Source: Lysobacterales bacterium (GTDB lineage Bacteria; Pseudomonadota; Gammaproteobacteria; Xanthomonadales; SZUA-5). Taken from it: a stretch of 49,907 nt of DNA. A program made the position numbers and the translations under genes. The stretch lies in NCBI GenBank assembly GCA_022844135.1, contig JALHMG010000039.1:1-49907 (forward strand), written 5' to 3'. Shown here in pieces: positions 3,285 through 18,876 of this stretch (its first letter is position 1; the number at the start of each line of letters is the position of its first letter). Under the pieces are notes generated by a model that saw only the letters and a program-made list of their open reading frames with translations, made no database searches and had not been told where the DNA came from.

Positions 3285-3354
3285 AACTTTGAATCCCCGC
3301 AAGGACTTCGCAGTTCCGATGCATGAGCGTTGGAACGCTCTGGGGAGAGAAGCC

Positions 3355-6300
3355 ATGAACAAAGCCAATCCGTTCAACGTTGCCTATGTGGTTCGTTACG
3401 TCGTTTGCTTCGCACGCAGTCTGCCGATCCTGAGTTTGCTGGCCATAGGACTGATCATCGGCCGTCCCACATATGCTCAGCTCACGTATCCCACGTCGCC
3501 GCCCGCAGGCGCCGATCTACAGACATTCGCGCAGCGCGGCTGGGGCGCGTTGAGTGGATTTGTCGCCGAGACCTTTTCCGACTGCACCTGCAATACCGGC
3601 TATACCATCGGCCCAAGGGGCACGTGTGTGCCGCGATCAGATTGGGAGCAATTCCTGACCATCGCCAGCAATTGGATTCACATCGAATACGGCATGGCTG
3701 GGCTCTTGTGCAACATCGAGTACGACAATTCAACGTCGTACAGCATCAGCAATGTCGGCAGTGGCTGTTTTGGTGGCGCACCTGTAGGTGAGCTGGGTGG
3801 CTCGACCCTTAACTCCGGTCTAACACAATTGAAGTTTGCCGATCCCAACGTTATTGGTAACAGTTGCCTCTTTGCGCCGTCGACGCCGAACGGAGGTATG
3901 TGTACCGGGGGGATTGGCCAGTCGGATGCTGTAAGGGTGACATGGACCTTGCCTGGCGAGACGCCCCCGTGCGTTGCCGGGACCGTCGGCTGTTGTCCGA
4001 AACTGGTTCGAGACGTCAAACTCATTCAAGAAAAGAACGGTCCCTTCCCGTGCGTGGGCAGCATGCCGATTCGTGACAGCAACACGCCGCGCTTTGGCCT
4101 CAATCGAATTTGTTCGGCGCCAGCACAACAATTGCTTAGTGCCGCTGCCTTCTTGGGGAGACAACCAACCCAATGCGCAGGGGACCCGGTAGACCTGGAG
4201 ACGGGCGCGTTCGTGGATCGGCTTCACTGCGGCGCATTCGACAATCCTGGTCCTGATCTTGATAGCTCATTGAGCTTCAGCTCTCGTCGGCCGGGCGGTT
4301 ATGCGTCGGTGCCCTTGCCGGCCGGTTGGGCCGCTGCGTATTCGCGCACGGCATTGCGTAAACCGGCCTCCGGCTCGCAGAAGGAACTGATTGTGGTTTT
4401 CACCGACGGCGGTGATGTTTTGCGCTTTGTCCGCCGCGATGTCTTCGAGCCAGGTACGACCTATTACTTCTACACGCAGGATGGAGACCGCCTTGCTGAC
4501 GGATACATGTCGGTGAACACGACCACCGGCAAGATGTATCTGACATACCGGGATGGCTCGACAGACACGTTTACGAGTCGCGGCGATTTGGAGCAAGTCA
4601 AAGATCCCACTGGCAACAACGCGATCAACATCACGATGACCGCCAGCGGTTCCGATTGGGTTCGCAAGCTTTCTCATTCGAGCAGCGGGCAGGCCATCGA
4701 GCAGGTGTTTTCGCGTATCACGCCAACAGGAGCGCCCGCTGCTGGCTGGTATCTGACCCAAGTGCGCGATGCCGCACAGAATATTGTCGGCGTCAACGGC
4801 GCGGTAGTTCGATCAGCCAGGTTGACCTATGCCTGGGCGACTGCCGCCAATCTTGCTTATGTTTCCAGTTACACCGACTATGCCGGTCGCACCGTGCGCT
4901 ACGGAAATCCAGATGGCGCCGGGCGTGTCCAACGCCGCTGCGATGAAAACAACAGCGGAGCCAGCACCGACAATACGGGCTGCGTCACGCATTCCTACGA
5001 CAGCAAGGGACGCGTCACACGACAAATACAGCCTGACCTGAGTGTGATCGACTTTACCTGGCAGCCTATTCCAAATGAGCCCGGCGGCACTGGTTACTCA
5101 CTCGAGGTTGGTTGGAAGGCGGGTGTGGGCAGTTCCAACACGCGCTTCCGTCGGTACCTGCACGACAATAGTGAACGCATTGTCCGTACGTACGCACCGG
5201 ACAAGACCAACATCTATTCCGAGCGCCGATATGCGCTCGACAATGGCGATCGGCTGGAAAGCGTGAGAAATGAGCTGGGTGTCACTACAAGGTTCACCTA
5301 TGACGCTCAAGGCAGGCTTACAGAAACGGACGAGGGGGTGTTCGTCGCGTCGCAGCCGGGACAACAGTCGGAACTGAAGCTCACCAGATTTGCGGACTTC
5401 GACAGCTTTGGACAGCCGCGAACCATCATCGATGCCGAAGGTCGTATTACCCGGCGCACCTTCGACGCGGCAACGGGCGCGCTGACGAGTGAGACCGTCA
5501 ACGATGGCACACAAAATCTTACGACGACTTTCAGCTACACGAGCAATGGTCAGTTGTCCAAAGTAGTGCTGCCGGATGGCACACGACACACGTATACCTA
5601 TGACGCCCGAAAGTACCTCGACAGAATCACGCTCGATGCCAACGACACCAACATCACGGGTCGAACGCAACTGATCGAGGACTACAATTTCGACTGGCGC
5701 GGCTTTCTGACATCGAGCACCGATCGCCGCGGCGTTATGCGCACATACAGTTACGACGCTGTCGGGCGCCTTCAATCTGAGCAAGTCCCGGCGATCGGCT
5801 GGAGCATGAGTTTTCAGTATGAGAACGCCGGAGGCCTTTCGCAGATCAATGCCACCGACGGCATTTGGCGATTTGCCAATCGAGCCACTTCCGTGGGTTA
5901 CCAAGTATCCCAGATTACTGAGCCCAATGGCCTGGTGACGACCTTCACCTACGATGCGGTTGGTCGTCTCCGCAGCAGCGCCATGGTCGGTCTGAACGGC
6001 ACCGGCAGTATCGCCTCTGGCGGCGATGCGAATCGCGATACGCTGATCTCTTACTCAACCCTCAGCGATGGCTACCGGGTGACCACCACGCTGGAAGATG
6101 CTGCCCAATCCTGGGTGGACTATGGCTTCGACGGTCGTGTGATCCGCACCCGCGACGCTCGTAATGTGACCAATGCGCTGACCTACGACAGCCTCGGCAG
6201 GTTGAAGACCCTGACGGCCGGCACTACAACCGCGCAAGGCTTTATTCCCTCCAGCTTCCCTGCGATCAATGCAGTCACCAGTTATCAATATGACCGAACC

Positions 6301-9084
6301 GGGCTGGTCACGCGCGTGACCGATCCCGAGCAACAGGGCCTGGCGGCAAACCTCAAGGCCTACACCAGCTACACCTACGATGGCATCGGCCGCCCGAAAT
6401 TGGTGACCGACGCCATGGGGCGGACCACCCAATTCAGCTACGACACCAATAATCGGACGACCACGATCGTGCAGGGCAGCGGTACCGAGAGCAAAACGGT
6501 CCGGCTCACCTACGACCGACTTGGGCGCTTGATTTCAGAGGCCACCGATCCGGCAGGGCTGAATCTCGTCGTTCGCTGGGGCTACACGCCCAGCATTGGC
6601 ACGACCAATCGATGGGACGTTGCGCAAGTCACCAATGCCGCCGGCTTTTCCACCTTCTACGGCTACGATGGCGGTGGACGCTTGTCGCAAACTCGCGATG
6701 CCAAGAACAACAACTGGGGTTTCACCCGCACGCCCCGCGGCTGCCTGGCGACGCAACGCTCGCCCTTGGGACGAGAAGTCCGCTACACCTACGGACCGAA
6801 TTGCCAGGTTGCCACGATCGCTGATCTGGAAACCGGCATCAACGAGAGTTTCAGCTACAACCTCGATGGCAGTCTGCGCGTGCACAATCTCGGCAACGCA
6901 CAGCACGCTTATGGTTACGATCGTCGTGGCCTTATGACCAGCCTGGTCAGCACGGCCCCAGATGCACCGGCGGTGAGCAGCTACTATCAGTATTACCCGA
7001 ACGGTCTGATGTACCGCGCTGTCTCGAATAACGTTGATGAGATGCTGCCCCTCGACGCGATGAATCGGCTTGCCAGTGGCGCGCTGAACAAACGAGGTCA
7101 GTTGCTCAGTATCGGCGCTGTTCCAACCACTTACACGTACGACAACGCAGGGCTGCTGGCCACAACAACCTTCAACGGCCAGATATCGCGCTACCAATGG
7201 ACCGCAGATGGCTTGCTCAAATCGATCAACCGCGACGGCACAGCAATTGATGAGGCCTACTCATACGATTCGGCACGGCGGCTGCTTGGAATCAGTCCCA
7301 ATTTCGATGGTTCGATGGTCGGTCAGCAGCATACCCTTGGGCTCGACGCGCGAGGCCTGGCGACGACTCAACGCCTGCCCAATAGCGTTTCGCGCACCAC
7401 AACCTACGACGAACGCGGCATGGCCCAGCACACGGGCGCGAGCGGCAGTCTCTCCGAACAACTCGGGCCCTTCGATGCCGACGGCAACCCAACATCGGCG
7501 CAGTTTTTCAACTACGCTCCGAATACTGCCGGCCTATCGTCCCAAAAAGCGACGGTGTTCACCTACGACGCCCGCGGCAACCTGAAGACTGCCGCTGAAG
7601 CCAATGGTGCCAATGCCTTTACATTTACCTACGACGCGCGCGACCGCCTGATCAGCTACACCGCGCCTGCCGGGCGTTATCCGGGCGCGGGCTATCGCGG
7701 CACCACGCGCAGCTTTACCTATAGCCCGATGGGCGCCCTGTCGAAGGTGAGCAACCCGAGCGCGGGCGTTACCAGGCTGACGCCCAGCTATCAATTCGCC
7801 CACCATCAGGTCATGAAATCGACCACCTGGAACGTCGGCGAGACGGCACAACTCGGCAGCGTCGATTACTCCTACGATGTCACAGGTCTGGGCATGTACG
7901 CGCGCAGCGCCAGCGACACCGTGCCCGCAGTGAGCAATATGAACGTCGTGCCCGTTCAGGACATGCGCGGCAGCGTCTGGTTCGAACGCGGCACAACGGC
8001 AGCCGCCGATGCCTCCACCAGCCTGCAAAAGCCGATCTATGCCATGAGCGGCGAACTGGGCGGCCTGCCGGCGCTGGCAACCGACGACGCCACACTGGGC
8101 AACGGCGCCCATCGATTTACAGGCGAATGGCAAACCCCGCATGGCCTGACCTATCTTCGTGCCCGCTGGTATTTCCCGCAGATCGGTCGGTTTTTGCAGC
8201 GCGATAGCTACGTTGGCGATCCGATGAGGCCGGCTTCGTTGAATCGGCACTCATATGCCGAAGGGGATCCGATTAATAACGTGGATCCGAGCGGATATGC
8301 CGTCAATTTTCTTGCGGTTGCCGCGGTTGCGGTCGGCTTGTACGTGGTTGACGAACTTTTGGCCGGCGAACCTACGGGTGTCCAGACGATAGATCCAAAT
8401 TCAACCGGACTAGAGTGTGCAAGCCTGAAGTCATGGCGAAACTGGCAAAACACTTACGCGGCTATTAGTTTGCTATCGCCTGATGTGCAGGATGTTCCTC
8501 GATTGGGCAGATCCCTGACCCGACGAGGCGGTGTTTTGAGAAGACCTCGTTCGCCCGCGTCTATAACCCCATACACCGGTTCTGGGACTCTCCGAGATCC
8601 GGAGATAATCCCTCCGAATGTCGAACTTCTGCCGATGCGGAGCGCGGCCAGCCCATTTGAATTGGCCTCCGTCCCTCCGAGTCTCACGACCCAGAGTCAG
8701 CCCCCAGTTGTGTTAGCTGGCCCGGGCACTACAATTCTCACTGGGTGTCACGGAACGGTTTGCGTAGTTGGACCTGGGCAGACGTTAGAAATTTTCGATG
8801 CATCCATTCGCAACATAATAATCTCCGGGGGGAATGATGTTCGGATTAGCGCTTCCGAAGTCCGAAACCTGAGTACAAGTCGCATCGTCGATAGTGGACA
8901 GATTTTCGTTCCAGCCCATAGTGCGGGTCCAATAAATATCACTATTCAGAACTCATCGGTTGTGAATCTTGGTGGGTCGGACGGAGTTCATCATATCGGT
9001 CCGACACAGTTCCTTATTCGGGACTCGTCAATTTTTAATCTTAGTGGCTCTGGGACGATTTTCGATAATTACGCGCGGCATTGA
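3355..9084 (+). CDS. Secreted RHS/YD-repeat protein with divergent C-terminal tip
   Basis: 1909 residues from ATG 3355, chosen because GGGGAGAGA (3342-3350) lies just upstream and the N-terminus then reads as a signal peptide ending near PTYAQ. In-frame alternatives are ATG 3319 and TTG 3289. A Cys-rich region follows, then a segment beginning CAGDPVDLETGAF typical of RHS proteins (DUF6531-like), then dozens of YD repeats (forms of YTYDxxGRL). The RHS core closes with GRFLQRD...NNVDPSGY at about residue 1648. The remaining ~260 residues are the variable tip: a hydrophobic segment (about 1650-1668), then a stretch with beta-helix-like repeats (IQNSSVVNL, IRDSSIFNL). RHS shells enclose a C-terminal effector in known members. 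This tip matches no toxin I recognise, no obvious immunity gene follows, and its DNA is less GC-rich than the body, suggesting tip exchange. Confidence 0.9.
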   Translation: MNKANPFNVAYVVRYVVCFARSLPILSLLAIGLIIGRPTYAQLTYPTSPPAGADLQTFAQRGWGALSGFVAETFSDCTCNTGYTIGPRGTCVPRSDWEQFLTIASNWIHIEYGMAGLLCNIEYDNSTSYSISNVGSGCFGGAPVGELGGSTLNSGLTQLKFADPNVIGNSCLFAPSTPNGGMCTGGIGQSDAVRVTWTLPGETPPCVAGTVGCCPKLVRDVKLIQEKNGPFPCVGSMPIRDSNTPRFGLNRICSAPAQQLLSAAAFLGRQPTQCAGDPVDLETGAFVDRLHCGAFDNPGPDLDSSLSFSSRRPGGYASVPLPAGWAAAYSRTALRKPASGSQKELIVVFTDGGDVLRFVRRDVFEPGTTYYFYTQDGDRLADGYMSVNTTTGKMYLTYRDGSTDTFTSRGDLEQVKDPTGNNAINITMTASGSDWVRKLSHSSSGQAIEQVFSRITPTGAPAAGWYLTQVRDAAQNIVGVNGAVVRSARLTYAWATAANLAYVSSYTDYAGRTVRYGNPDGAGRVQRRCDENNSGASTDNTGCVTHSYDSKGRVTRQIQPDLSVIDFTWQPIPNEPGGTGYSLEVGWKAGVGSSNTRFRRYLHDNSERIVRTYAPDKTNIYSERRYALDNGDRLESVRNELGVTTRFTYDAQGRLTETDEGVFVASQPGQQSELKLTRFADFDSFGQPRTIIDAEGRITRRTFDAATGALTSETVNDGTQNLTTTFSYTSNGQLSKVVLPDGTRHTYTYDARKYLDRITLDANDTNITGRTQLIEDYNFDWRGFLTSSTDRRGVMRTYSYDAVGRLQSEQVPAIGWSMSFQYENAGGLSQINATDGIWRFANRATSVGYQVSQITEPNGLVTTFTYDAVGRLRSSAMVGLNGTGSIASGGDANRDTLISYSTLSDGYRVTTTLEDAAQSWVDYGFDGRVIRTRDARNVTNALTYDSLGRLKTLTAGTTTAQGFIPSSFPAINAVTSYQYDRTGLVTRVTDPEQQGLAANLKAYTSYTYDGIGRPKLVTDAMGRTTQFSYDTNNRTTTIVQGSGTESKTVRLTYDRLGRLISEATDPAGLNLVVRWGYTPSIGTTNRWDVAQVTNAAGFSTFYGYDGGGRLSQTRDAKNNNWGFTRTPRGCLATQRSPLGREVRYTYGPNCQVATIADLETGINESFSYNLDGSLRVHNLGNAQHAYGYDRRGLMTSLVSTAPDAPAVSSYYQYYPNGLMYRAVSNNVDEMLPLDAMNRLASGALNKRGQLLSIGAVPTTYTYDNAGLLATTTFNGQISRYQWTADGLLKSINRDGTAIDEAYSYDSARRLLGISPNFDGSMVGQQHTLGLDARGLATTQRLPNSVSRTTTYDERGMAQHTGASGSLSEQLGPFDADGNPTSAQFFNYAPNTAGLSSQKATVFTYDARGNLKTAAEANGANAFTFTYDARDRLISYTAPAGRYPGAGYRGTTRSFTYSPMGALSKVSNPSAGVTRLTPSYQFAHHQVMKSTTWNVGETAQLGSVDYSYDVTGLGMYARSASDTVPAVSNMNVVPVQDMRGSVWFERGTTAAADASTSLQKPIYAMSGELGGLPALATDDATLGNGAHRFTGEWQTPHGLTYLRARWYFPQIGRFLQRDSYVGDPMRPASLNRHSYAEGDPINNVDPSGYAVNFLAVAAVAVGLYVVDELLAGEPTGVQTIDPNSTGLECASLKSWRNWQNTYAAISLLSPDVQDVPRLGRSLTRRGGVLRRPRSPASITPYTGSGTLRDPEIIPPNVELLPMRSAASPFELASVPPSLTTQSQPPVVLAGPGTTILTGCHGTVCVVGPGQTLEIFDASIRNIIISGGNDVRISASEVRNLSTSRIVDSGQIFVPAHSAGPINITIQNSSVVNLGGSDGVHHIGPTQFLIRDSSIFNLSGSGTIFDNYARH

Positions 9085-9635
9085 ACTCCGAAATCAAGGT
9101 GGGGATCGTGGACCCTGTTGGGTGTGAGGGGGAAGGCCATACGAGACGGCGCGCTATCGCAAGCGTTTTTTGGCCAAACGGCAAGGGTGTCGTGGGTAAC
9201 TGCGAAGCTGGCGAAAGCCGAAGGCAAAGCGCTGGCCTGACGAACAGGAAGCGGATATGAGGCGGCAGAGCGGGGTAAGGCGGCCAATATAAGGATCGGC
9301 CAGGGACAGCCATCGAATCGATGACGGCTCGCTATTCAAGGTCCGCCGGCAGACTGAAATTTGATTACCGGTTCGCGGATGTGGCTGGGCGCCCGACAGT
9401 TTGATCATGGCTGACCTTGAGGATGTCAGAAGCCTTGATCACGACTTGTATTTCCAGATCAGGCGCGTGGCCACCGCGTTCCGGTGGTTGTAAAACATGA
9501 GATCCTGAGGTCCGCTTTCGAACAATCGTGACCGTTGCCGGACAAGCGCAGACCGGCAACGGCCAATGCCACAGCCGCGCACGCCTGGCACGAGCCTTGC
9601 TGCCAACAGGTAGAAATCCGCCTTTCGGGCCTGCC
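9085..9635. other. Intergenic stretch without a supported gene
   Basis: About 550 bases between the RHS gene and the permease. Open frames here are short or lie antisense to the permease and have low-complexity, Arg/Ser/Pro-rich products typical of shadows. An immunity gene for the RHS tip would be expected in this place, but nothing with convincing codon structure or a ribosome-binding site was found. The stretch could be the remains of tip or immunity cassettes; that is speculation. Confidence 0.5.
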
Positions 9636-11969
9636 ATGTCTTCAACAACGTTTCGCCGCCTGTTGCGCGCCGAGTCTCGCGCGTTTTCGTTGGGGACCAT
9701 GGCAACCCTGGGCGCTGTGATCGCCGCCTTCGTGGTGATCGCGCAACTGGCGTATGCGGCGCTCTGGGCGCCGTTGCCCAATGCACAAGCGGAACGTTTA
9801 CTGGAACTTGAAGAGTTCCATCCAACGCGCGGAATCGCCGACTTTTCGGTGTCGACACCGAACTTTCTGGATTGGCAGCGCGACTTGCCGCAAGCGCAAA
9901 TCGCTGCACTGCAAAGCATCGACTTGACCCTGAATGCGAGCGCCGGCGAGGTTGCGCAGCGCGTCGTGGGCATGCAGGCAAGCTCGAACGTGTTCGCGGT
10001 GCTGGGTCTGCGATTGCAGGGACAAACCTGGCGCGCGCCGGGAGATATGGGTGTGGTGCTGCGCGAGAGTCTGTATCGGCAGCGCTTCGGCGATGTGCCG
10101 CTGAGCGATCAGCGCTTGTCGATCAACGGCGTGCGTCGATCGGTCATCGGCATTGCGCCGGATGCTATCGGCGTCGCACCGACGGTCGATGTGTGGCTGA
10201 TGCACCCGTTCGACAACAGCGATCGCGACGATCGTCGCCTCACGGTGTGGGCGCGTCTGACGCCGGAAACGACGGCGCCGGAGTTCGCCAGCGCACTGGC
10301 CACCGTCCATCGACGATTGGGTGAGACCTTCCCCGAGGCAAATGCCGGCTGGGAAGCCAAAGCGACGCCCGCACTGGCCGCGATCGTTGGCGCGGATCTC
10401 GAACGCCGCGTGCTCCTGCTCCTGTTGGCCGTCAGTGCGTTATTGCTGCTGGCGACCGTGAATCTGGCCAACCTTTTGATTGCGCGTGGTCTCGAACGTG
10501 GCAGAGACATCGCAACGCGCCGCGCGCTGGGTGCGTCGAATGCACGGATGCTCGGCGAGCTGACGACCGAATCGGCCTGTCTGGCGATCTGTGGCGCGCT
10601 GCTTGGACTGGGGCTGGCCGCTGCGCTGTTCGAAGCGCTGCATTCGCAATTGCCGGAGCTGCCGCGTTGGCAGAACGCGCATTTCGACTGGCCGATCGCG
10701 CTGCTGTCGCTGCTGGTGGGTGTGGTGCCGATTGTTGTGGGCGGGGCGCTGGCGGCATTGCTGGCGCTGCACGCTGCGCGCCGCGCCGAGTTGCGCCAAC
10801 GTGCGCCGCGGGCGCGTTGGCGCTCGGCGTTAGTGCTGACGCAGCTCGCATTGGCGACCTGCCTGCTGTTGATCGCCACGGCGCTCGCGGGCGAGTGGCG
10901 GCGCCTGCTCAATCTGGAGCTGGGCTTCGATACCAACACCGTGCTCGCCGCCCGATTTGCCATCGATGAAGTCGTCGACGAGAGCAGCCACACACGTGGC
11001 CTGCGCACCACGGCGGACCTGATCGACGCTGCGCGCGGCCTTCCAGGCGTGCTCAGCGCGGCGGTCGCGAATGAGGCGCCGCTGGGCGCGTTGGATACCA
11101 CCATGATGCTGGCGCCGGGATCGGTGCCGCCGAGCAGCGATCTGGGACTGCAGGTGTCGTGGCGCATCGTATCGGAGGGCTACTTCAAGGCGGCCGGAAC
11201 CACGCTACAGGCCGGTCGCGATTTCGGCCCGGAAGAATCGCCGAACTCGGCGATTCTGAGTGCCAGTCTGGCCAAAGCCCTGTGGCCGGATCGATCGCCA
11301 CTCGGTCTCGATGTAACGTTCGAGAACGGCCGCACGCGCACCGTGGTTGGCGTCGTCGCCGATGCGCGGAACAACACCATCGACGGCGCACCGGCATCCG
11401 CCATCTACTTGCCGACGTCGTGGTACCTGTGGCCGACCATGACCCTGGTGGTCCGCGCCCAAGGCGATGCACAAGCGTTGCGCGCGGCGTTGGTGAGCGC
11501 CGGCCAGCGAGCACGACCGGACACGCCACTATTCGATGTCGCCACGATGGCGGCGCGCGTCGAGCGCCACCTCGCGCCGCAGCGCCAACAGTTGCTGACC
11601 ATGCAGGTATTCGGCGCGATGAGTTTGCTGCTGGCGTGCGTCGGCATCTTCAGCGTGGTCGCCTATTCGATCGCCCAGCGGCGCAGCGAAATGGCGCTGA
11701 GGATGGCCATCGGCGCTACGTCGCCCCGGCTGCTGCGCGATGAAGTCCGCAGCGGCGCGCTGCTGTCGCTGACGGGCGCCGGCATCGGCCTTGGTCTGCT
11801 GGCACTCGCGTTTCCGTGGTTGCAAGCGCAGTTATCGTTGGCGCCGCTGTCGCTGCCGATCATGGTGTTGTCGTGCTGCGCCATCGTCGTCCTGGGCACC
11901 GCGGCAACGATCATCGCCGCACGCCCAATTCGCCGCGTACAGCCGATCGCGGCGCTGCGATCGTCCTGA
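9636..11969 (+). CDS. ADOP/MacB-type ABC transporter permease (orphan)
   Basis: 777 residues from ATG 9636. An in-frame GTG at 9528 would add 36 residues without sense. The layout is that of acidobacterial-duplicated orphan permeases: one membrane helix near the N-terminus, a periplasmic MacB-like domain, three helices including LLLAVSALLLLATVNLANLL, then a second half repeating the pattern. The C-terminal FtsX domain includes the typical SEMALRMAIGAT and ends RRVQPIAALRSS. I count about eight membrane segments. MacB/FtsX permeases act with an ATPase, but none is encoded nearby, so it either borrows one or works as a mechanotransmission protein. No specific substrate can be named. It is preceded by an apparently empty 550-base stretch and followed 143 bases later by the cupredoxin operon. 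Confidence 0.85.
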   Translation: MSSTTFRRLLRAESRAFSLGTMATLGAVIAAFVVIAQLAYAALWAPLPNAQAERLLELEEFHPTRGIADFSVSTPNFLDWQRDLPQAQIAALQSIDLTLNASAGEVAQRVVGMQASSNVFAVLGLRLQGQTWRAPGDMGVVLRESLYRQRFGDVPLSDQRLSINGVRRSVIGIAPDAIGVAPTVDVWLMHPFDNSDRDDRRLTVWARLTPETTAPEFASALATVHRRLGETFPEANAGWEAKATPALAAIVGADLERRVLLLLLAVSALLLLATVNLANLLIARGLERGRDIATRRALGASNARMLGELTTESACLAICGALLGLGLAAALFEALHSQLPELPRWQNAHFDWPIALLSLLVGVVPIVVGGALAALLALHAARRAELRQRAPRARWRSALVLTQLALATCLLLIATALAGEWRRLLNLELGFDTNTVLAARFAIDEVVDESSHTRGLRTTADLIDAARGLPGVLSAAVANEAPLGALDTTMMLAPGSVPPSSDLGLQVSWRIVSEGYFKAAGTTLQAGRDFGPEESPNSAILSASLAKALWPDRSPLGLDVTFENGRTRTVVGVVADARNNTIDGAPASAIYLPTSWYLWPTMTLVVRAQGDAQALRAALVSAGQRARPDTPLFDVATMAARVERHLAPQRQQLLTMQVFGAMSLLLACVGIFSVVAYSIAQRRSEMALRMAIGATSPRLLRDEVRSGALLSLTGAGIGLGLLALAFPWLQAQLSLAPLSLPIMVLSCCAIVVLGTAATIIAARPIRRVQPIAALRSS

Positions 11970-12112: not shown

Positions 12113-12883
12113 ATGCGTTTGCTGCTGCTGTGCCTGCTTGCGCTCTGCACCGATGCCTTCGCTGCCAACTTCGCAGTGGCCGTCGGCGGTAATGCGGGTC
12201 TCGTGTTCACGCCGCGCGATCTGCAAATCCGCACCGGCGATACGGTGACTTTCACCAACGCAGGTGGCTTTCACAACGTGGTGTCACAGGCGGCCGGCTT
12301 CCGCTGCGCGCAGGGCTGCGATGGCCAGGGCGGCAACGGCAATTCGTCGACGGCGCTGTGGAGCGTCACCATCACGTTCAACACGCCAGGCACCTTCGAT
12401 ATTTACTGCGAGCCGCATGGCTCACCGGGCGTCGGCATGGCCGGCACCATTCGCGTCACTCAGGCGGCAACCAACACCATTGACGCCACCTACACCGGTG
12501 CCTGGTTCGATCCGGCGCAATCGGGGCATGGCTTGTTGCTCGAAGTGCTGCCCAACAACCAGTTGCTCGCATGGTGGTTCACGTTCTCGCCGACTGGTCA
12601 GCAAGCGTGGTTCGGCGGCGTCGGGCCGATCACCGGCAATACCGCGACCATCGCCGTGGCGCAAACCCAGGGCGGTCGCTTCATCCCGAACTTCAATCCC
12701 TCGCAAATCACGAATCCGCCGTGGGGGACGTTGAACTTCACGTTCACCAGCTGCTCCAGCGGGCGCGTGGATTTTGCCTCCAACGCAGCCGCAGGATTCG
12801 GTACCGGTACGATGCAGCTGACGCGGTTGACGGTACCTGCTGGCATCACCTGTCCGCCGCCTGCGACCACCGTGGCGCCGTGA
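12113..12883 (+). CDS. Secreted cupredoxin with Lysobacterales-type tail domain
   Basis: 256 residues. A signal peptide covers about 1-18 (cleavage near DAFAA). Residues 19-116 form a plastocyanin-like fold with a complete type 1 copper set: H54 (GGFHNVV), C99, H102 and M109 (YCEPHGSPGVGM). Residues 124-250 form a second domain starting GAWFDPAQSGHG, with WWFTFSPTGQQAWF and WGTLNFTF, ending LTRLTVPAGITC. I associate this tail with secreted proteins of Xanthomonadales relatives, but it has no function I know. The stop overlaps the GTG start of the next gene (GTGA), so it appears to be the first gene of the thioredoxin / DUF4266 / DUF3570 / ApbE operon. A role as periplasmic electron carrier or copper donor is inference from the ligands. 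Confidence 0.85.
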   Translation: MRLLLLCLLALCTDAFAANFAVAVGGNAGLVFTPRDLQIRTGDTVTFTNAGGFHNVVSQAAGFRCAQGCDGQGGNGNSSTALWSVTITFNTPGTFDIYCEPHGSPGVGMAGTIRVTQAATNTIDATYTGAWFDPAQSGHGLLLEVLPNNQLLAWWFTFSPTGQQAWFGGVGPITGNTATIAVAQTQGGRFIPNFNPSQITNPPWGTLNFTFTSCSSGRVDFASNAAAGFGTGTMQLTRLTVPAGITCPPPATTVAP

Positions 12884-13377
12884 GCGCCCGCGCACTAGCG
12901 CTCGCGGGCCTGCTCGCAAGCGCTTCGCTGCAGGCGACCGAGGTTGGGGAAAACGCCCCGCTGGTGGTCGCTGCCGCACTCGATCAGGCGGGCGAGCATC
13001 GCCTTGAAGAACTAGGCGGCAAGGTGGTACTGGTCGATTTCTGGGCCTCGTGGTGCGCGCCGTGTTTGCACGCATTGCCGGCGTATGCACAGTTGCGATC
13101 GGAGCTTGGCCCACGTGGGTTCGAGGTATTGGCGATCAGCGTCGATGAGCAGCGCAAAGACGCCGAACGCTTTCTGGAGCGACGCCCGGTCGCGGTCTTG
13201 CTCGCCCACGATCCGGATGGCGCCTGGGCCAAAGCCTTTGCGGTGAAGGTCATGCCGTCGTCCTATCTGGTCGATCGAAACGGCGTAGTTCAAGAAGTGC
13301 ACTTGGGCTATCGTGCCGAAGAACTCGCTGCATTACGAAGCCGTATCGAAGCCATGTTGGAGCCCGCGAATGAGTGA
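12880..13377 (+). CDS. TlpA-like periplasmic thioredoxin
   Basis: 165 residues from GTG 12880, which overlaps the cupredoxin stop. A frame open further upstream runs inside the cupredoxin gene and is rejected. A short signal sequence (about 1-19) precedes a thioredoxin fold of the TlpA/ResA type: active site C59-A-P-C62 (WASWCAPC), cis-proline P126 (VMPSSYLVD). This family reduces or isomerises disulfides, or maintains cysteine pairs of metal- or heme-binding partners, outside the cytoplasm. In this operon the obvious client is the small lipoprotein encoded next, which ends with a Cys-Gly-Cys motif. Its 3' end overlaps that gene's start (ATG 13370 within the last codons). Confidence 0.88.
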   Translation: MSARALALAGLLASASLQATEVGENAPLVVAAALDQAGEHRLEELGGKVVLVDFWASWCAPCLHALPAYAQLRSELGPRGFEVLAISVDEQRKDAERFLERRPVAVLLAHDPDGAWAKAFAVKVMPSSYLVDRNGVVQEVHLGYRAEELAALRSRIEAMLEPANE

Positions 13378-13588
13378 TCGACGCTGGTTACTGCTGATTG
13401 CATCTTTATGCCTGACGGCCTGTGCCTCGGCCCCGGTTGAACCGTGGGAGCGCGGGCGCCTTGCGAGCCTGGAAATGCAGTGGGAGCCCGATCCGCTGAA
13501 ATCCGCGATGCGCGAACACACGCGCTTTAGCAAAGAAGGCAGCAGCGGTCGGCTCGGCAATGCCGGCGGCGGCTGCGGCTGCAACTGA
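13370..13588 (+). CDS. DUF4266 small lipoprotein ending GGGCGCN
   Basis: 72 residues from ATG 13370, overlapping the thioredoxin stop. The signal sequence ends in a lipobox, LTAC, with C18 as the lipid-attachment residue. The mature peptide keeps the DUF4266 signature: WERGRLA, M....DP, H..FSKEG and the extreme C-terminus GGGCGCN. The two closing cysteines flanking a glycine in a flexible, glycine-rich tail suggest metal binding, a redox-active pair, or an attachment point. Function is unknown. Gene order beside a thioredoxin, DUF3570 and an FMN transferase is, as far as I recall, conserved across many Gammaproteobacteria. That co-occurrence is the main clue to function. Confidence 0.87.
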   Translation: MSDRRWLLLIASLCLTACASAPVEPWERGRLASLEMQWEPDPLKSAMREHTRFSKEGSSGRLGNAGGGCGCN

Positions 13589-13601
13589 CGCGAGCGCGCC
13601 G

Positions 13602-14753
13602 ATGCAAAGCAGCCGATTGATGCGCCTGATGGCCGCCGCCGCCGCCCTGCAGGCGGCCGCGCCCGCAATCGCGGAAACGCGCGTCAGCGTGCGCAGCAGC
13701 GAGTACGACGAGCGGCCCTTGCGCGAGGCGCCAGTCGACGGCAGCGACGAGCGCTACACGGTGCGCAAGCAGCAGTTCGAGTTGAGCCACGAGCGCGACG
13801 AGAGCGATGCGCTGTCGCTGCGTCTGACCAGCGAATGGATGAGCGGCTCATCGCCATGGTTCAACGTGCCCGGCGAAACGGGCGGCGTGCAGCAGATCAT
13901 GAGCGGCGCGACCATCGACGATCGCCGCGCGGAACTCATTGCCGGCTGGACGCGGCGCAACGCGGGCCATTCACGCACGCTGCAGTTGAGCGCCTCGCAC
14001 GAAGACGACTATCGCTCGCTGGCGTTGGGCCTGAGCTTCGAACGCCCGCTGGACGACACCTACACGCTCGGCTACGGCGCGAGTATTTCCGACGACACTA
14101 TCGAGCCCACCGACGCCGCGCAGTTTGGTCGCGTGGAGCGCGAGGACAAGCGCACGCTGTCGGCGCACGTCAGTCTCGCGCAAATACTGGATCGCGCCAG
14201 CGTCGTGCAATGGGGCGTGTCGGTCAATCACGGCAGCGGCTATTTGTCCGATCCGTACAAGCTGTTTTTCGCTGGCGGTCCAACGCTGCCCGACAGCCGA
14301 CCTGGGCAACGGACCCAAGCCTCGGCCTTTACTCGTTACCGTCGTGACGTGACCTCGCTCTCGGGCGTGCTGCACGCCGATGTGCGCGTGGCAACCGACA
14401 ACTGGGGTTTGCAATCGCTGGCGCTCGAAGGCGCCTGGTACCAGAGCCTGGGCGACGATTGGCGGCTCGTGCCGCAATTGCGTTACTACGAGCAATCGGC
14501 CGCCAGCTTTTACGCGCCGTTTAGCGCGAGTATCGCCAGCGCCGGTCGCTTCCATTCCAGCGACTTTCGCCTCGGTGCCTTCGGTGCGCTCTCTGCAGCG
14601 CTTGATGTACGCTGGCAATCGGGCGATCTCGCAGTGGTGTTCGGCTACGAGCACTATCGCGGCGACGAGCCATTGTTCTTCGACGCCGACAACGACGACC
14701 CGGCGTGGCTGACCTTCGGCCAGTGGCATGCCGGGTTCGATTATCGGTTTTGA
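13602..14753 (+). CDS. DUF3570 outer-membrane protein
   Basis: 383 residues from ATG 13602, which begins a signal peptide (MQSSRLMRLMAAAAALQ...AIAE). An in-frame ATG at 13560, inside the previous gene, would add 14 alanine-rich residues. The rest alternates polar and aromatic residues in amphipathic strands and ends in Phe (DYRF), as expected for a beta-barrel delivered by BAM. This matches the DUF3570 family. Residues 101-104 read SGAT in the context MSGATIDD. That resembles the core of the FMN-attachment motif of NqrC/RnfG proteins but lacks its preceding Asp. The stop overlaps the ApbE start (TGATG). A role as acceptor, channel or partner of the DUF4266 lipoprotein is inference. Confidence 0.85.
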   Translation: MQSSRLMRLMAAAAALQAAAPAIAETRVSVRSSEYDERPLREAPVDGSDERYTVRKQQFELSHERDESDALSLRLTSEWMSGSSPWFNVPGETGGVQQIMSGATIDDRRAELIAGWTRRNAGHSRTLQLSASHEDDYRSLALGLSFERPLDDTYTLGYGASISDDTIEPTDAAQFGRVEREDKRTLSAHVSLAQILDRASVVQWGVSVNHGSGYLSDPYKLFFAGGPTLPDSRPGQRTQASAFTRYRRDVTSLSGVLHADVRVATDNWGLQSLALEGAWYQSLGDDWRLVPQLRYYEQSAASFYAPFSASIASAGRFHSSDFRLGAFGALSAALDVRWQSGDLAVVFGYEHYRGDEPLFFDADNDDPAWLTFGQWHAGFDYRF

Positions 14754-15664
14754 TGGCGGCGTCTCAGCCCCGCGCCTATCGCCTTGCATTTGCGGCGATG
14801 GGTTGTCCGTGCGTTATCGCTCTGGAAGGCCTCGATGTCGAGCGCGCTTCGCGGCTCGCGGAACTCGCCAAATCGGAAGTCGACCGGCTCGATCAAAAGT
14901 ACTCGCACTATCGCGATGACAATGAGTTAGCGCGTTGGCACGCCGCATGGCCAAACCCGGTGCGACTCGATGAGGAATCGCTGGCGCTGCTGCGTCTGGC
15001 CGCCGTGCTGCACGACGATAGCGGCGGCCGTTTCGATATCACCGCCGCACCTCTCACGCGTCTTTGGGACGGCAAGCGTGGGCGACTCCCCACCGCCGTG
15101 GAGATCGACGCGGCGCGAACGCACGTTGGCTTTGCGCGCCTGCGCATCGAAGCGCCGTTTCTCACCCTGCCAAGCCGCGAGGCGCGCATCGAATTCGGCG
15201 GCCTCGTTAAAGAGTACGCCGCCGACCGCGCTGCGGACATCTGCCGTGACGCTGGCGCGCTCCATGGTCTCGTCGACCTGGGCGGCGACATTGCCGTGAT
15301 CGGACCGCACGTCGACGACACGCCGTGGCGCATCGGCATCCGCAACCCCAGCGCACGCGAGTCTTCGATCGCGGATATCGAACTCCGTTGTGGCGGTCTG
15401 GCCACCAGCGGCGACTACGAACGCTGTTTGATCGTCGAGGGTAAACGCTACTCGCACATCGTCGATCCGCTGAGCGGCTGGCCGGTGGCCGGTTTCAGCA
15501 GCGTCAGCGTCAGCGCCCCCAGCGCCCTGATCGCTGGCGCCGCCTGCACCACCGCGATGCTGCTGGGCGCCGAAGCGGGCGCACAGTATCTGGATGAACT
15601 CAGGCTGCCTTGGGTCGCGGTGGGCGCCGATGGCGGAGTCCGCCGACCGACGTGGCCTGAGTGA
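14753..15664 (+). CDS. ApbE-like FAD:protein FMN transferase
   Basis: 303 residues from ATG 14753, overlapping the DUF3570 stop. ApbE enzymes transfer FMN from FAD to Thr/Ser of exported proteins. Visible motifs are the N-terminal FAAMGCPC, the D175-L-G-G-D179 loop, TSGDYER (218-224) and H235-I-V-D-P-L-S-G. Two oddities stand out. There is no signal peptide or lipobox, although most ApbE enzymes act in the periplasm. In the C-terminal metal-binding segment, usually ADALxT, this protein reads IAGAACTT, so Gly262 stands where the Mg2+-ligand Asp is expected. It may therefore be a cytoplasmic or metal-altered subclass tied to the DUF4266/DUF3570 operon. The frame extends upstream to 14705, but that lies inside DUF3570. 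Confidence 0.85.
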   Translation: MAASQPRAYRLAFAAMGCPCVIALEGLDVERASRLAELAKSEVDRLDQKYSHYRDDNELARWHAAWPNPVRLDEESLALLRLAAVLHDDSGGRFDITAAPLTRLWDGKRGRLPTAVEIDAARTHVGFARLRIEAPFLTLPSREARIEFGGLVKEYAADRAADICRDAGALHGLVDLGGDIAVIGPHVDDTPWRIGIRNPSARESSIADIELRCGGLATSGDYERCLIVEGKRYSHIVDPLSGWPVAGFSSVSVSAPSALIAGAACTTAMLLGAEAGAQYLDELRLPWVAVGADGGVRRPTWPE

Positions 15665-15742
15665 GTGCCGCGACGCATCGCGTTAGCGCGAAAACCCGGC
15701 CTGTGCGATGCTTTAGCTCGGCCACAAACTGGGGAGGGCACG

Positions 15743-16156
15743 ATGTTGAAAAAAGTCTTGATGGTGTTTGCCGGATTGATCGTACTGGTCAGCGGCTGCA
15801 TGGGCGTGGTGTTCTGGGCCACGGCCGAATTGCCGAAGGCAGCGGATGGATTCTTCTCCGCCATCGCTCGCGAAGATTACGCCGCAGCGATGGAACTGAC
15901 CTCGACGGATTTCAAAGCCTCGACCAGCCAGGAAGACTTACAAGCCTTCGCCGAAGAAAACGGCATCACGGGCTACACCGAAGCCACCTGGACCTCGCGC
16001 TCGATCGAGAACAGCGCCGGAACATTGGAGGGCACGCTCGAAATGGCCGACGGCGGCAGCCTGCCGATCGCCGTGCAACTGGTGAAATCCAGCGGCGGCT
16101 GGCAGATTCAGAACGTCAGGAAGGCCGAAGCAGGGTTGTCGACCGACGGTGAGTGA
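15743..16156 (+). CDS. Small membrane-anchored NTF2-like protein
   Basis: 137 residues from ATG 15743, chosen for the strong GGGGAGGG (15731-15738) just upstream. A frame opening earlier (15665) has no such site. One N-terminal membrane helix, about residues 4-22 (KVLMVFAGLIVLVSG), is followed by a ~110-residue domain starting FFSAIAREDYAAAMELTS. This pattern is typical of NTF2-like/DUF4878-type proteins whose conical fold serves as a ligand pocket or binding surface. No catalytic residues can be named. Its stop overlaps the GTG start of the HEAT-repeat gene by 4 bases, suggesting co-translation. Confidence 0.7.
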   Translation: MLKKVLMVFAGLIVLVSGCMGVVFWATAELPKAADGFFSAIAREDYAAAMELTSTDFKASTSQEDLQAFAEENGITGYTEATWTSRSIENSAGTLEGTLEMADGGSLPIAVQLVKSSGGWQIQNVRKAEAGLSTDGE

Positions 16157-18876
16157 TCTGGTCCGCGCGACCAGGAGGCCGAGACATATTCCGGCTGATC
16201 TCCATGACACTCATCGGAACCCTCTCACTGTTGGTCATGTTGGGAACGCCGTTGGTGGCCAATACCGGAACGCCAGCGGGGTTGCGCGCAACGTTGCTGA
16301 GCCTCGACGATACCGCCTACTTGGGCGGCATTGAACCGCAGGTACGCGAGATGGCGCCCGCGCTGCGTGCCGCTGTTGCGCGCGATATCGGCAGCCGATT
16401 GCCGTCCTGCGAGAAGCCTGATCCGCTGAGCGGCGAAGTGATCATCGATCCCAATGCGGGGAAGCAGGCGCCTGTCGTTGCAAACGAATGGCTGAAGACC
16501 TTGCGCGATCTGCTTGGTAATCCCAATCCTGCGGTGCGCGATGCTGCAGCTTGGCTGCTTGGCGAAATCGGTCCTGCGGCCGCTATCGTCGTACCCGATC
16601 TTCGCCCCAGCGATCACGACCGTTCGCCTTGGTTCACGCATGCACTGAGTCGAGTGTCATGCCAAGCTTACGGAATGACTGCGCCACTGATGGGACTGCC
16701 GGCGCTCGCGTTCGAAGCTGCCGATATCGAACGCACCGATGGGTTGTCGGTCGCGCAGCGGGTTCAGCTTGCGGCCTTCTTGCTTGATCGGCGCGATCTC
16801 GTTTGGCCTGAGGGTTGGTTCGAAGCATTCGTCGAGTCTTACGAACACATAGAAACGCCAAGCACCCCGGCATTGATTGCGCTGGCGAGCGTTGCAGCTG
16901 ATGTGGATCGATTGCCTGAGCATCGCAACGATGCGTTAAGACTATTGCGAATCCTCGGGCCGCTGCCGCCCGAAGCGACTGGACTGCTGGCGGGCGTGAT
17001 GCGCGATGTCGACGACGATGTTGCATGGGAAGCTGCATGGGCTCTCCATGACAATCCAAGCGAGTTGGACGGGGAAGCTGCGCTAAGTCTGTTGCGTCGC
17101 CACAGCGTCGACGTAGGCTCGCTTAATGGGCGCAGCTGCACGCCATACGCGAACACCTCCAAGCAGCTTCTGAGCAGGATCGCGGCTGTATTGCAGGGTC
17201 CTAACTGGGACGACGCGACTGCGGCGGCCAAGCGTCTTGGCTGCCTGCGCGACGTGCGTGCCATCCCAGTACTGCTGCGTGCGTTGGAACATGCGTCTTG
17301 GGAGGTGGTGGAGAGCGCGGTGAAGGCGCTCTCGGCCCACATCGATAAGCCTGAGGTACGATTGAGCCTGGCTCAGTTGAGGGAAGCGCACTGGTCCGGA
17401 CTGATCCGCAAGGCTGCGAGCGAAACGCTCGATCCGCCACCGCCGGAATCGGACCCAGAGACCATTGAGTTGACATGCTTCCACCGTTGCCCGACAAATC
17501 ACTTGAACAGCCAATGCGGCGACGAGCGCGGCATCGTAGATGGCATCTACATGGCGCCAGGATTGGGCGAAGTGGACGTCATTTGGAATCGCGTACGTCG
17601 CCAGCCCATTCCGGCGGCGATCAGTGGCCTCGTGCACACAGATTCTAGAGCGAATTACGGTAGCAACGACTTCAAACGTTTAGCGAGCGGATGGCTGGTC
17701 GCCAGTGACCGCTGGCACTACGACGGCGAACTCAGCTTCATCGACGAGGCTGGTCAAAAGCAATCGATACAGCAATTCGGCGAAGACGGCATTGCGCTCT
17801 TGGATTCACCCCATTTCGGCAACGTCGTACTTGCGCGCTCGCTGTTTGGCGTCGGTAAGGGCGGGTTGTTGGCCACGATCGAAGGAACGCCGGGCAACTT
17901 TAGCCTAAGTTACCGCGCGGTCTTGCCGAGCCCGCCTTGGGGCTGGGCAATGGCGCCGGACGGAACGCTACTGGTGGCCGATCCGTACAACACTGTGGCA
18001 GTCACCTCGGAGGGAAGCATCCAACCGCTCGACTGTCCGCTCAAGGCCCCGCGCCGCTCCGCGAGTACTCTACTGCGCCTTGCCCTCCGCGCGAACGGGG
18101 CACCACTTCCGCCGGAAGTTCGAGACGCCAGCATCGACGTCCGCGTGATCGAGCAATTGCGGGCCACGCAAGCGCAGCAAGCAGCGGACGATAACAATCC
18201 GGCGATCCACCGCAGGTGGTACGTACAAGACGTTTACGAACATGCCGATGCGCTGACCCTGGATGGGCGCGCGGCAGCGGCGCTTGCGCTGATCAAGCGC
18301 GCCGAACTGACCGAGGACGAGCGTAAACCAAGCCAAGAGATCCCGATCCTGCTGGAGGTCGGCGACACTAAAGCTGCGCAGATTCTGCTGAAAAACTCGC
18401 CACCCAGCGAATCCCGTGCGTTGGCGTTCTTTCACGGTGCGCTTGCCGTCGTCTCAGGCAACCAATCAGAACTTGACAATGTTCTCGAAGCACTGCGTTC
18501 GGAGGAAGATGAGTATTCAAGCCTACTGCGGCGGGCTGCGGGTCGGCGTACGACCCCTATCGATGTAGCGACGCCATCGAACCAGGACGTACGACTACAG
18601 CCATGGCCGAAACCGATAGCCGCCTTTCTGGATGGGCACATTGACGAGGCCGCGTTGGTGCTAGCGAGCCATCGCCGCGACGGGCGCATCAACCTCGAAC
18701 ACCTGTGCGAAGCACTGGTCTATGTGGGCCTGGATCTTGCGCGACGCGGGGAGCGGCGAGCCGCGCAGCGTCATCTCGCCGCCGCAGTCCGTCTAGGAAT
18801 GAGGCACTACACAGAGCACACCATGGCTGCCCTTGCCGTGGCTGCTCTCAATGACGGTCGTCGCTCTAGGAAATAA
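16153..18876 (+). CDS. Exported HEAT-repeat protein of unknown function
   Basis: 907 residues from GTG 16153, which overlaps the previous stop. This start gives a basic n-region followed by a hydrophobic core (LISMTLIGTLSLLVMLG), a good signal peptide. ATG 16204 is the alternative but would lose the charged residues. Residues ~100-180, ~250-310 and ~335-420 hold HEAT-like helical pairs (AVRDAAAWLLGEIG; DVAWEAAWALHD; SWEVVESAVKALSAH). The middle (~430-650) has beta-rich sequence reminiscent of propeller blades (WGWAMAPDGTLLVADPYNTVAV). The C-terminal ~200 residues look like TPR helices. Several cysteines are present (CFHRCPTNHLNSQC), suggesting a periplasmic location with disulfides. I recognise no family; a scaffold role is inference. 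It converges on dnaQ. Confidence 0.75.
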   Translation: MIWSARPGGRDIFRLISMTLIGTLSLLVMLGTPLVANTGTPAGLRATLLSLDDTAYLGGIEPQVREMAPALRAAVARDIGSRLPSCEKPDPLSGEVIIDPNAGKQAPVVANEWLKTLRDLLGNPNPAVRDAAAWLLGEIGPAAAIVVPDLRPSDHDRSPWFTHALSRVSCQAYGMTAPLMGLPALAFEAADIERTDGLSVAQRVQLAAFLLDRRDLVWPEGWFEAFVESYEHIETPSTPALIALASVAADVDRLPEHRNDALRLLRILGPLPPEATGLLAGVMRDVDDDVAWEAAWALHDNPSELDGEAALSLLRRHSVDVGSLNGRSCTPYANTSKQLLSRIAAVLQGPNWDDATAAAKRLGCLRDVRAIPVLLRALEHASWEVVESAVKALSAHIDKPEVRLSLAQLREAHWSGLIRKAASETLDPPPPESDPETIELTCFHRCPTNHLNSQCGDERGIVDGIYMAPGLGEVDVIWNRVRRQPIPAAISGLVHTDSRANYGSNDFKRLASGWLVASDRWHYDGELSFIDEAGQKQSIQQFGEDGIALLDSPHFGNVVLARSLFGVGKGGLLATIEGTPGNFSLSYRAVLPSPPWGWAMAPDGTLLVADPYNTVAVTSEGSIQPLDCPLKAPRRSASTLLRLALRANGAPLPPEVRDASIDVRVIEQLRATQAQQAADDNNPAIHRRWYVQDVYEHADALTLDGRAAAALALIKRAELTEDERKPSQEIPILLEVGDTKAAQILLKNSPPSESRALAFFHGALAVVSGNQSELDNVLEALRSEEDEYSSLLRRAAGRRTTPIDVATPSNQDVRLQPWPKPIAAFLDGHIDEAALVLASHRRDGRINLEHLCEALVYVGLDLARRGERRAAQRHLAAAVRLGMRHYTEHTMAALAVAALNDGRRSRK

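Follow-up and report, generated by a model that had tools for sequence, protein, structure and literature searches.

The known outer-membrane electron conduits are mainly multiheme cytochromes, and in the porin-cytochrome conduits of the MtrCAB type an outer-membrane barrel is thought to carry electrons between the periplasm and the exterior. Gene clusters combining an ApbE flavin transferase, a DUF3570 protein, a thioredoxin-like protein and a DUF4266 protein, with or without DsbD, have been described by Meheust et al. 2021 (PMC8238504), whose account points out a C-terminal CXC in DUF4266 and includes 316 clusters without a linked DsbD. In the same account, the DUF3570 protein of Chlorobium luteolum is flavinylated with its cognate ApbE, and abolition of the modification needs both [S/T]GA[S/T] sites to be changed (PMC8238504). 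Here we describe a related five-gene operon, at 12113..15664 on the plus strand of a 49,907-nucleotide stretch from a Lysobacterales bacterium (assembly GCA_022844135.1, contig JALHMG010000039.1; "the window" below means this whole stretch). The operon codes, in order, for a cupredoxin with an additional C-terminal domain (12113..12883; PF00127 Copper-bind, E=5.8e-12), a TlpA/ResA-like thioredoxin (12880..13377; PF00578 and PF08534), a DUF4266 lipoprotein (13370..13588; PF14086, E=2e-20), a DUF3570 protein modelled as an outer-membrane β-barrel (13602..14753; PF12094, E=4.4e-50; AlphaFold2), and an ApbE-family protein of predicted flavin transferase activity (14753..15664; PF02424, E=4.2e-68), with the motifs MGCPC and KEYA and an Asp-to-Gly change. 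Translation and Pfam searches thus uphold the families that a first-pass annotation had named for these five open reading frames (ORFs).

We propose, tentatively and at somewhat less than even confidence, that the operon specifies an outer-membrane relay in which flavins and dithiols pass electrons and to which a secreted copper protein is coupled. Such a barrel, if the proposal is true, would be a different solution to outer-membrane electron passage, and the neighborhoods of related loci point to concrete candidate partners. The first-pass annotation had regarded the set as the most likely undescribed system of the stretch; this has to be withdrawn for the four-gene core and the flavinylation of DUF3570, both published in 2021 (PMC8238504). 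What is likely new relative to that core is the cupredoxin in its clade, a signal-less ApbE devoid of the catalytic Asp, and the probable outward orientation of the flavin sites in the barrel model. The words "cupredoxin" and "copper" are absent from the main text of PMC8238504; a 2024 follow-up (PMC11334425) models other flavinylated substrates, with "barrel" and "thioredoxin" absent from its main text, and no paper combining a cupredoxin, a thioredoxin and a flavin transferase was found in open-licence PubMed Central.

A constant core and two forms of DUF4266

DUF4266 was found in 94 of 370 sampled genomes of the class, and comparisons were made across two sets of loci. The class set consists of 81 loci (80 fetched stretches and the window), each picked for DUF4266 and scanned with profiles made from the window proteins. 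The named set consists of 80 loci picked by likeness to the window DUF3570 (466 relatives reported), 78 of them with a defined operon start; five contigs, recognized by their length, are common to both sets (L047/L123, L042/L124, L044/L125, L045/L128, and L041/L153). DUF3570 is present in all 81 loci of the class set, a thioredoxin somewhere in 74, ApbE in 47, and a cupredoxin in six, bearing out the first-pass statement that the grouping recurs.

The DUF4266 proteins come in two forms, type A ("PWERG...FSKEASSGG", 40 loci) and type B ("EPWVKPYER...", 41 loci). ApbE lies within 3 kb in 36/40 type A and 5/41 type B loci; the strict [ST]GA[ST] motif occurs at least once in 33 of 41 type A DUF3570 rows and is absent from 33 of 42 type B rows, the thioredoxin being mostly kept in type B. 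What stays constant is the pair DUF4266 and DUF3570, in most cases joined by the thioredoxin, while the flavin motif and ApbE go with type A, the window included. A further gene family, occurring in 40 mostly type B loci together with TPR and barrel proteins, matches hydrazine synthase alpha in its representative, the Pfam scan of recurrent neighbor families having been run on representatives. In such type B neighborhoods, proteins like hydrazine synthase alpha, SH3/barrel proteins and TPR proteins surround a DUF3570/DUF4266/thioredoxin trio that mostly has no flavin motif (e.g., L067 2117-4849, L063 5016-5804, L060 7825-8601, L098 3379-5292, and L112 562-3399). A response regulator, named by eye and no electron carrier, also recurs next to some loci of the class set (24 ORFs in 14 loci).

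A predicted barrel with two candidate flavinylation sites

The AlphaFold2 model of DUF3570, built on 66 rows (alignment A3: the window and 65 of the 67 relatives scored for sites), has a predicted local distance difference test score (pLDDT) of 91.3 and a predicted template modelling score (pTM) of 0.86, and 16 long strands can be read from its DSSP line. This even-stranded predicted barrel resembles solved outer-membrane proteins, consistent with the barrel that the first reading of the letters had anticipated. VIA-align places a BamA model, PelB, PgaA, and BcsC at the top (Z 19–22, root-mean-square deviation [rmsd] ~4), with CymA and OmpG also matched, and Foldseek places FadL first (TM ~0.4), with OmpG and others also matched. 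As many barrels score nearly as well, we claim no functional kinship with FadL, BamA, PelB, PgaA, or BcsC.

Short turns and long loops alternate in the model, and the short turns of outer-membrane barrels generally face the periplasm. By this standard topology, the second extracellular loop would contain a small hairpin, facing outward or into the lumen, with one candidate flavinylation site at each of its feet. Site 1 (SGSS, residues 81-84, 13842..13853), which caps strand 69-82 in the model, matches a relaxed family form, [ST]G[AS][ST]P; site 2 (SGAT, residues 101-104, 13902..13913) fits the published [S/T]GA[S/T] and is the single strict match in the window protein. Among the 67 relatives, the relaxed form is found at site 1 in 66, at site 2 in 59, and at both in 58. 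None of the 21 short-turn residues is highly conserved, and many highly conserved residues lie in loops; we use this loop/turn contrast alone, having dropped as evidence a comparison of the outer and inner halves of the strands (p=0.06). The nearest named relatives of the window protein are Lysobacterales and Rudaea records (best identity 82%). In the DUF3570 tree, the neighbors of one record labelled Klebsiella pneumoniae (L141) are uncultured Gammaproteobacteria, and the record is probably a mislabelled bin.

An ApbE branch with an altered active site

In Vibrio cholerae ApbE the catalytic triad is Asp285-Ser241-His257 (PMC12052999). With these residues placed by us on the alignment columns, the window enzyme has the Ser and the His, and its Asp column is occupied by Gly. 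Among the 37 type A-locus ApbEs of the class set, the triad Ser and His are retained in all, the Cys of MGxxC is found in 37/37 and the Glu of KEYA in 36/37, and the Asp column is Gly in 37/37 versus 0/10 ordinary ApbEs. In the named set (n=69) this column holds 63 Gly, five gaps, and one Arg, and the Cys column of MGxxC holds 67 Cys and two Ala. From the co-change of the two positions we would guess that the KEYA Glu replaces the lost carboxylate.

The hydrophobicity ahead of the domain is at most 2.2 in the 37 type A-locus enzymes (L046 being the highest) versus 2.4–3.5 in the 10 type B-locus ApbEs of the class set, and by a similar measure none of the 69 named-set ApbEs exceeds 2.0. The window enzyme shows neither a signal peptide nor a lipobox, nor a strongly hydrophobic start even when read back from its ATG to the previous stop, export signals having been judged here from hydropathy and by eye, without a signal predictor. 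The sequence suggests that flavin is loaded in the cytosol by an ApbE with no evident export signal. Since cytosolic ApbEs with cytosolic substrates are already on record (PMC12052999), the novel element would be a cytosolic ApbE serving an exported barrel. The flavinylated C. luteolum DUF3570 was taken from the insoluble pellet of Escherichia coli after expression without an export signal (PMC8238504), which suggests that a protein outside the membrane can be an ApbE substrate.

This ApbE branch tracks DUF4266 loci: DUF4266 lies within 8 kb of 48 of the 60 best ApbE matches in the class (E≤3e-40, window included) versus eight of the next 27 on a longer list. We read the ORFs around four of the 12 exceptions (L204, L222, L224, and L232); at three of them, L204, L224, and L232, the ApbE has the same branch motifs with no DUF4266 match nearby.

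Thiol components

The thioredoxin has a C-A-P-C active site at 13054-13065 (within WCAPC) and, by eye, a signal sequence. Its Pfam matches include PF00578, PF08534, PF13905, and PF00085, with PF13899 not among them at E≤0.01, and its best NCBIfam match is ResA, below the cut-off of that family; the TlpA-like disulfide enzyme of the first-pass annotation is thereby supported. The DUF4266 protein has by eye an LTAC lipobox, leaving a mature protein of ~54 residues that ends in GGGCGCN, so that the lipoprotein with a Cys-Gly-Cys end also holds (Cys-Gly-Cys-Asn, 13574..13585). An end of GCGC plus one residue is shared by all 81 class-set homologs and by 77/79 in the named set, where one further protein ends in GCGC plus two residues.

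The thioredoxin gene is directly upstream of DUF4266 in 68/78 named loci and in overlapping frames in two more, and was not found in the other eight. In six of these eight a protein with a CxxCH motif is coded directly ahead of DUF4266 (L156, L161, L163, L164, L169, and L185). In the DUF3570 tree, which does not contain the other four, L156 pairs with L185, and L163 and L169 have a common assembly prefix; the six may therefore reflect one event. Two DsbD_TM proteins are encoded in the source genome on contigs C62 and C12, away from the window contig, C39.

The cupredoxin and other upstream genes

The predicted type 1 copper ligands of the first gene product are H54, C99, H102, and M109, following an N-terminal signal judged by eye. 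H54, C99, and H102 are invariant, and M109 is conserved at ≥90%, among 11 aligned cupredoxins (window included). Foldseek matches plastocyanin and pseudoazurin across ~100 residues, and the His-Cys-His-Met set thus falls within a cupredoxin fold predicted to bind copper; the PF00127 match and the conserved ligands agree with the copper protein proposed at first pass, to which a second domain is now added. This domain, the C-terminal ~120 residues, has no Pfam match and finds 28 matches in its own genome, the cupredoxin itself included. Copies occur in many ORFs of that genome, some ORFs having two or more. We rejected a role as a specific surface anchor, as nothing beyond these genomic matches favors it. 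The structure model is modest (pTM 0.52): the listed Foldseek matches fall on the cupredoxin part rather than on the tail, and a few nitrite reductases that align over a longer stretch do so at an rmsd >15.

A cupredoxin is the first gene in five of the nine loci from the window's own order (the window, L041, L044, L045, and L047) and is divergently placed in L042. In L043 and L048 its place is taken by a CxxCH protein that also has the tail domain (of the two, the one scanned, from L048, has no cytochrome match in Pfam); L046 has a second thioredoxin-like protein. Outside the order it is found in none of 72 class loci, by a narrow profile grown from the window protein and its close kin that could miss distant cupredoxins. 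The cupredoxin is thus syntenic in part of the order and is no general component of the grouping. The first-pass annotation would have given up its proposal had the cupredoxin never been syntenic in relatives and had neither protein carried a cofactor or altered redox behavior in deletion mutants; as the cupredoxin is syntenic in part of the order, that joint ground for abandoning the proposal does not arise. In the named set, 13 DUF3570 rows, window included, were scored as cupredoxin loci (L124 with the gene divergent, L136 with it ~3 kb upstream, and L128 read through a masked run); all lie within one 19-row group with support 100/99, the remaining six rows of which are near a contig end and unreadable for this gene. 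This recurrence within the clade leads us to reject a chance neighbor as the full account, clade-limited though the gene is. An apparent cupredoxin-thioredoxin fusion in L045 (one stop-to-stop ORF) was set aside as evidence of linkage, as its frame crosses a masked stretch.

Across the 68 named loci that have a readable upstream ORF, this ORF codes for a CxxCH protein in 15 and a cupredoxin in nine, versus nine and one of 329 control genes >3 kb away; together, 24/68 versus at most 10/329. The count, made on the named set alone, took the longest ORF of ≥90 residues within 900 bases against controls of ≥100 residues, so that a length bias is possible; neighbors are stop-to-stop ORFs rather than gene-finder calls, some upstream ones being plainly spurious (e.g., L124), and p-values overstate the contrast because the loci are related. 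Pfam finds among the 68 nine Copper-bind domains, nine fatty acid desaturases, six DUF1552, five DsbD_TM, three RoxA-like cytochromes, and two Cupredoxin_1. In our reading from position, the carriers are interchangeable, a cupredoxin or CxxCH proteins occupying the same place. In records from Stagnimonas, Zhongshania, and Pseudomonadales, the DUF3570 operon has nearby genes for large proteins in which CxxCH occurs two or three times (L184 8981-11569, L188 10246-12885, L191 5172-7130, L195 4606-7203, and L173 12643-15324), those of L191 and L195 being RoxA-like by Pfam. The desaturase loci, as seen by eye, are L160, L176, L177, L182, L187, L192, L193, L199, and L201, L160 being the one scanned singly.

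A possible electron relay and its alternatives

Starting from the gene families, gene order, motif conservation, barrel model and ApbE branch observed here, we infer throughout the direction of electron flow and the contacts between partners. The extracellular electron transfer or metal handling hinted at in the first-pass annotation is likewise a conjecture. In the cytosol, ApbE would load the DUF3570 precursor with flavin mononucleotide (FMN) at one or both of its loop sites; the precursor would then be exported and fold as a 16-stranded outer-membrane barrel, whose flavin sites, by the model and the topology rule, would be near each other on a loop that is extracellular or faces the lumen. 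One of the two unlinked DsbD-like proteins would re-reduce the periplasmic thioredoxin, which in turn would reduce the Cys-Gly-Cys tail of DUF4266. This lipoprotein, at or in the barrel, would hand electrons to the flavins, and electron exchange might follow between these and a secreted one-electron carrier, to judge from position the cupredoxin here and proteins with c-type heme motifs in relatives. A fuller version, namely a heme-free outer-membrane route with a barrel loaded in the cytosol ahead of export and carrying two neighboring FMN at its outer rim, the KEYA Glu compensating for the Asp, the Cys-Gly-Cys lipoprotein and thioredoxin as reductants, and interchangeable outer carriers (cupredoxin in Lysobacterales, c-type heme elsewhere), we regard as rather unlikely to be right in all its parts.

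Several observations weigh against the relay. DUF4266 is patchy, being present in 9/61 genomes (the window genome and 60 relatives). The cupredoxin occurs in a single clade and was not found in the 72 class loci beyond the order, its tail is a generic domain in the source genome, and 9/68 upstream genes are fatty acid desaturases. The core can do without flavin, because type B loci mostly have neither the strict motif nor a close ApbE, and site 1 of the window, SGSS, falls outside the published [S/T]GA[S/T]. The N-terminus of the L046 ApbE is moderately hydrophobic (2.2 versus ≥2.4 in ordinary ApbEs). In PMC8238504, an apbE with its signal peptide truncated is named in the methods for a different pair, and C. 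luteolum is described there as handled along similar lines; the C. luteolum ApbE that was tested may thus itself have had an export signal. The activity of the window ApbE is not assured, because the triad Asp reviewed in PMC12052999 is lost.

The alternative that survives best, though we think it somewhat unlikely, is that the operon contains the published DsbD-fed flavin reductase core, perhaps for iron assimilation, with the cupredoxin as a co-transcribed cargo that shares its regulation and is no electron partner. Publication of the core with DsbD, with a VIT1 iron transporter in 25 clusters (PMC8238504), speaks for it, as do the clade-limited cupredoxin and the 28 genomic matches of its tail; however, the cupredoxin is kept in its clade down to a DUF3570 identity of 36–37% to the window (L136 and L153), and CxxCH proteins take the same place elsewhere at a frequency above control. 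Improbable, in our view, is a system for thiol maturation or protection of exported metal proteins, in which the thioredoxin and the Cys-Gly-Cys lipoprotein would deliver copper or hold the cysteines that bind copper or heme in the reduced state, the barrel serving as a surface dock. The persistence of the thioredoxin and the Cys-Gly-Cys tail where the flavin motif is missing would fit it, as would the frequency of upstream genes for copper proteins or CxxCH proteins, whose cysteines are in each case reactive until maturation, but it leaves ApbE and the conserved flavin sites unexplained, and six loci have DUF4266, DUF3570, and a CxxCH protein with no thioredoxin found. Least probable of all is that the window ApbE is inactive or has a cytosolic substrate of the known kind (PMC12052999), DUF3570 being an unflavinylated porin-like channel: the Asp-to-Gly change, the lack of an evident export signal and the deviant site 1 lean that way, but the triad Ser and His persist in 37/37, the branch tracks DUF4266 loci, site 2 agrees with the published motif, and conservation of the loop is high.

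Gene junctions and genomic surroundings

A promoter and terminator scan gave no excess over shuffled sequence, so that co-transcription of the five genes rests on their overlaps and conserved order. The cupredoxin and thioredoxin genes meet in GTGA at 12880 (GTG 12880-12882 over the stop TGA 12881-12883), and the DUF3570 and ApbE genes in TGATG at 14751-14755, both as first read. ATG 13602 of DUF3570 leaves the 13-base gap after DUF4266 noted then, and an in-frame ATG at 13560 would instead give an overlap. The DUF4266 start had been put inside the preceding stop; ATG 13370 is in fact five bases ahead of that stop (13375-13377), making an 8-base overlap. The source genome is in 75 contigs, of which C39 holds the operon. 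A MacB/FtsX-type permease gene (9528-11969) stops 143 bases ahead of the operon, and two genes upstream, on the same strand, is a 1931-residue ORF with RHS repeats (3289-9084; PF05593, E=1e-62). Directly downstream of the operon is a 907-residue HEAT-repeat protein (16153-18876), with a small DUF4864-like ORF, under the family cut-off, between it and ApbE (15665-16156).

Comparison with described systems

The window resembles the clusters of Meheust et al. (PMC8238504) in uniting the same four families and in the C-terminal CXC of its DUF4266, and its DUF3570 is a member of the family of which one protein serves there as an ApbE substrate with [S/T]GA[S/T] sites. It differs in a thioredoxin of the AhpC-TSA/Redoxin type rather than PF13899, in the unlinked position of DsbD, in an ApbE with neither an evident export signal nor the catalytic Asp, in the SGSS of site 1 and, by comparison with the main text of that report, in the first-gene cupredoxin. 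The window ApbE shares the ApbE domain and the active-site Ser and His with extracytosolic ApbE flavin transferases, and departs from them in lacking any evident signal peptide or lipobox and in having MGxPC for MGT, KEYA for KGYA, and Gly for Asp. Plastocyanin, pseudoazurin, and amicyanin are like the window cupredoxin in fold and in the His-Cys-His-Met ligands, but it scores below the NCBIfam cut-off of each named type and differs by the C-terminal tail domain that is repeated in its genome. Finally, with the MtrCAB conduits the operon has in common a barrel, here a predicted one, in the outer membrane; no cytochrome family, and hence no multiheme partner, is matched by Pfam among the five operon proteins, and the operon would offer flavin, dithiol, and copper instead of cytochromes, around a barrel of a different family.

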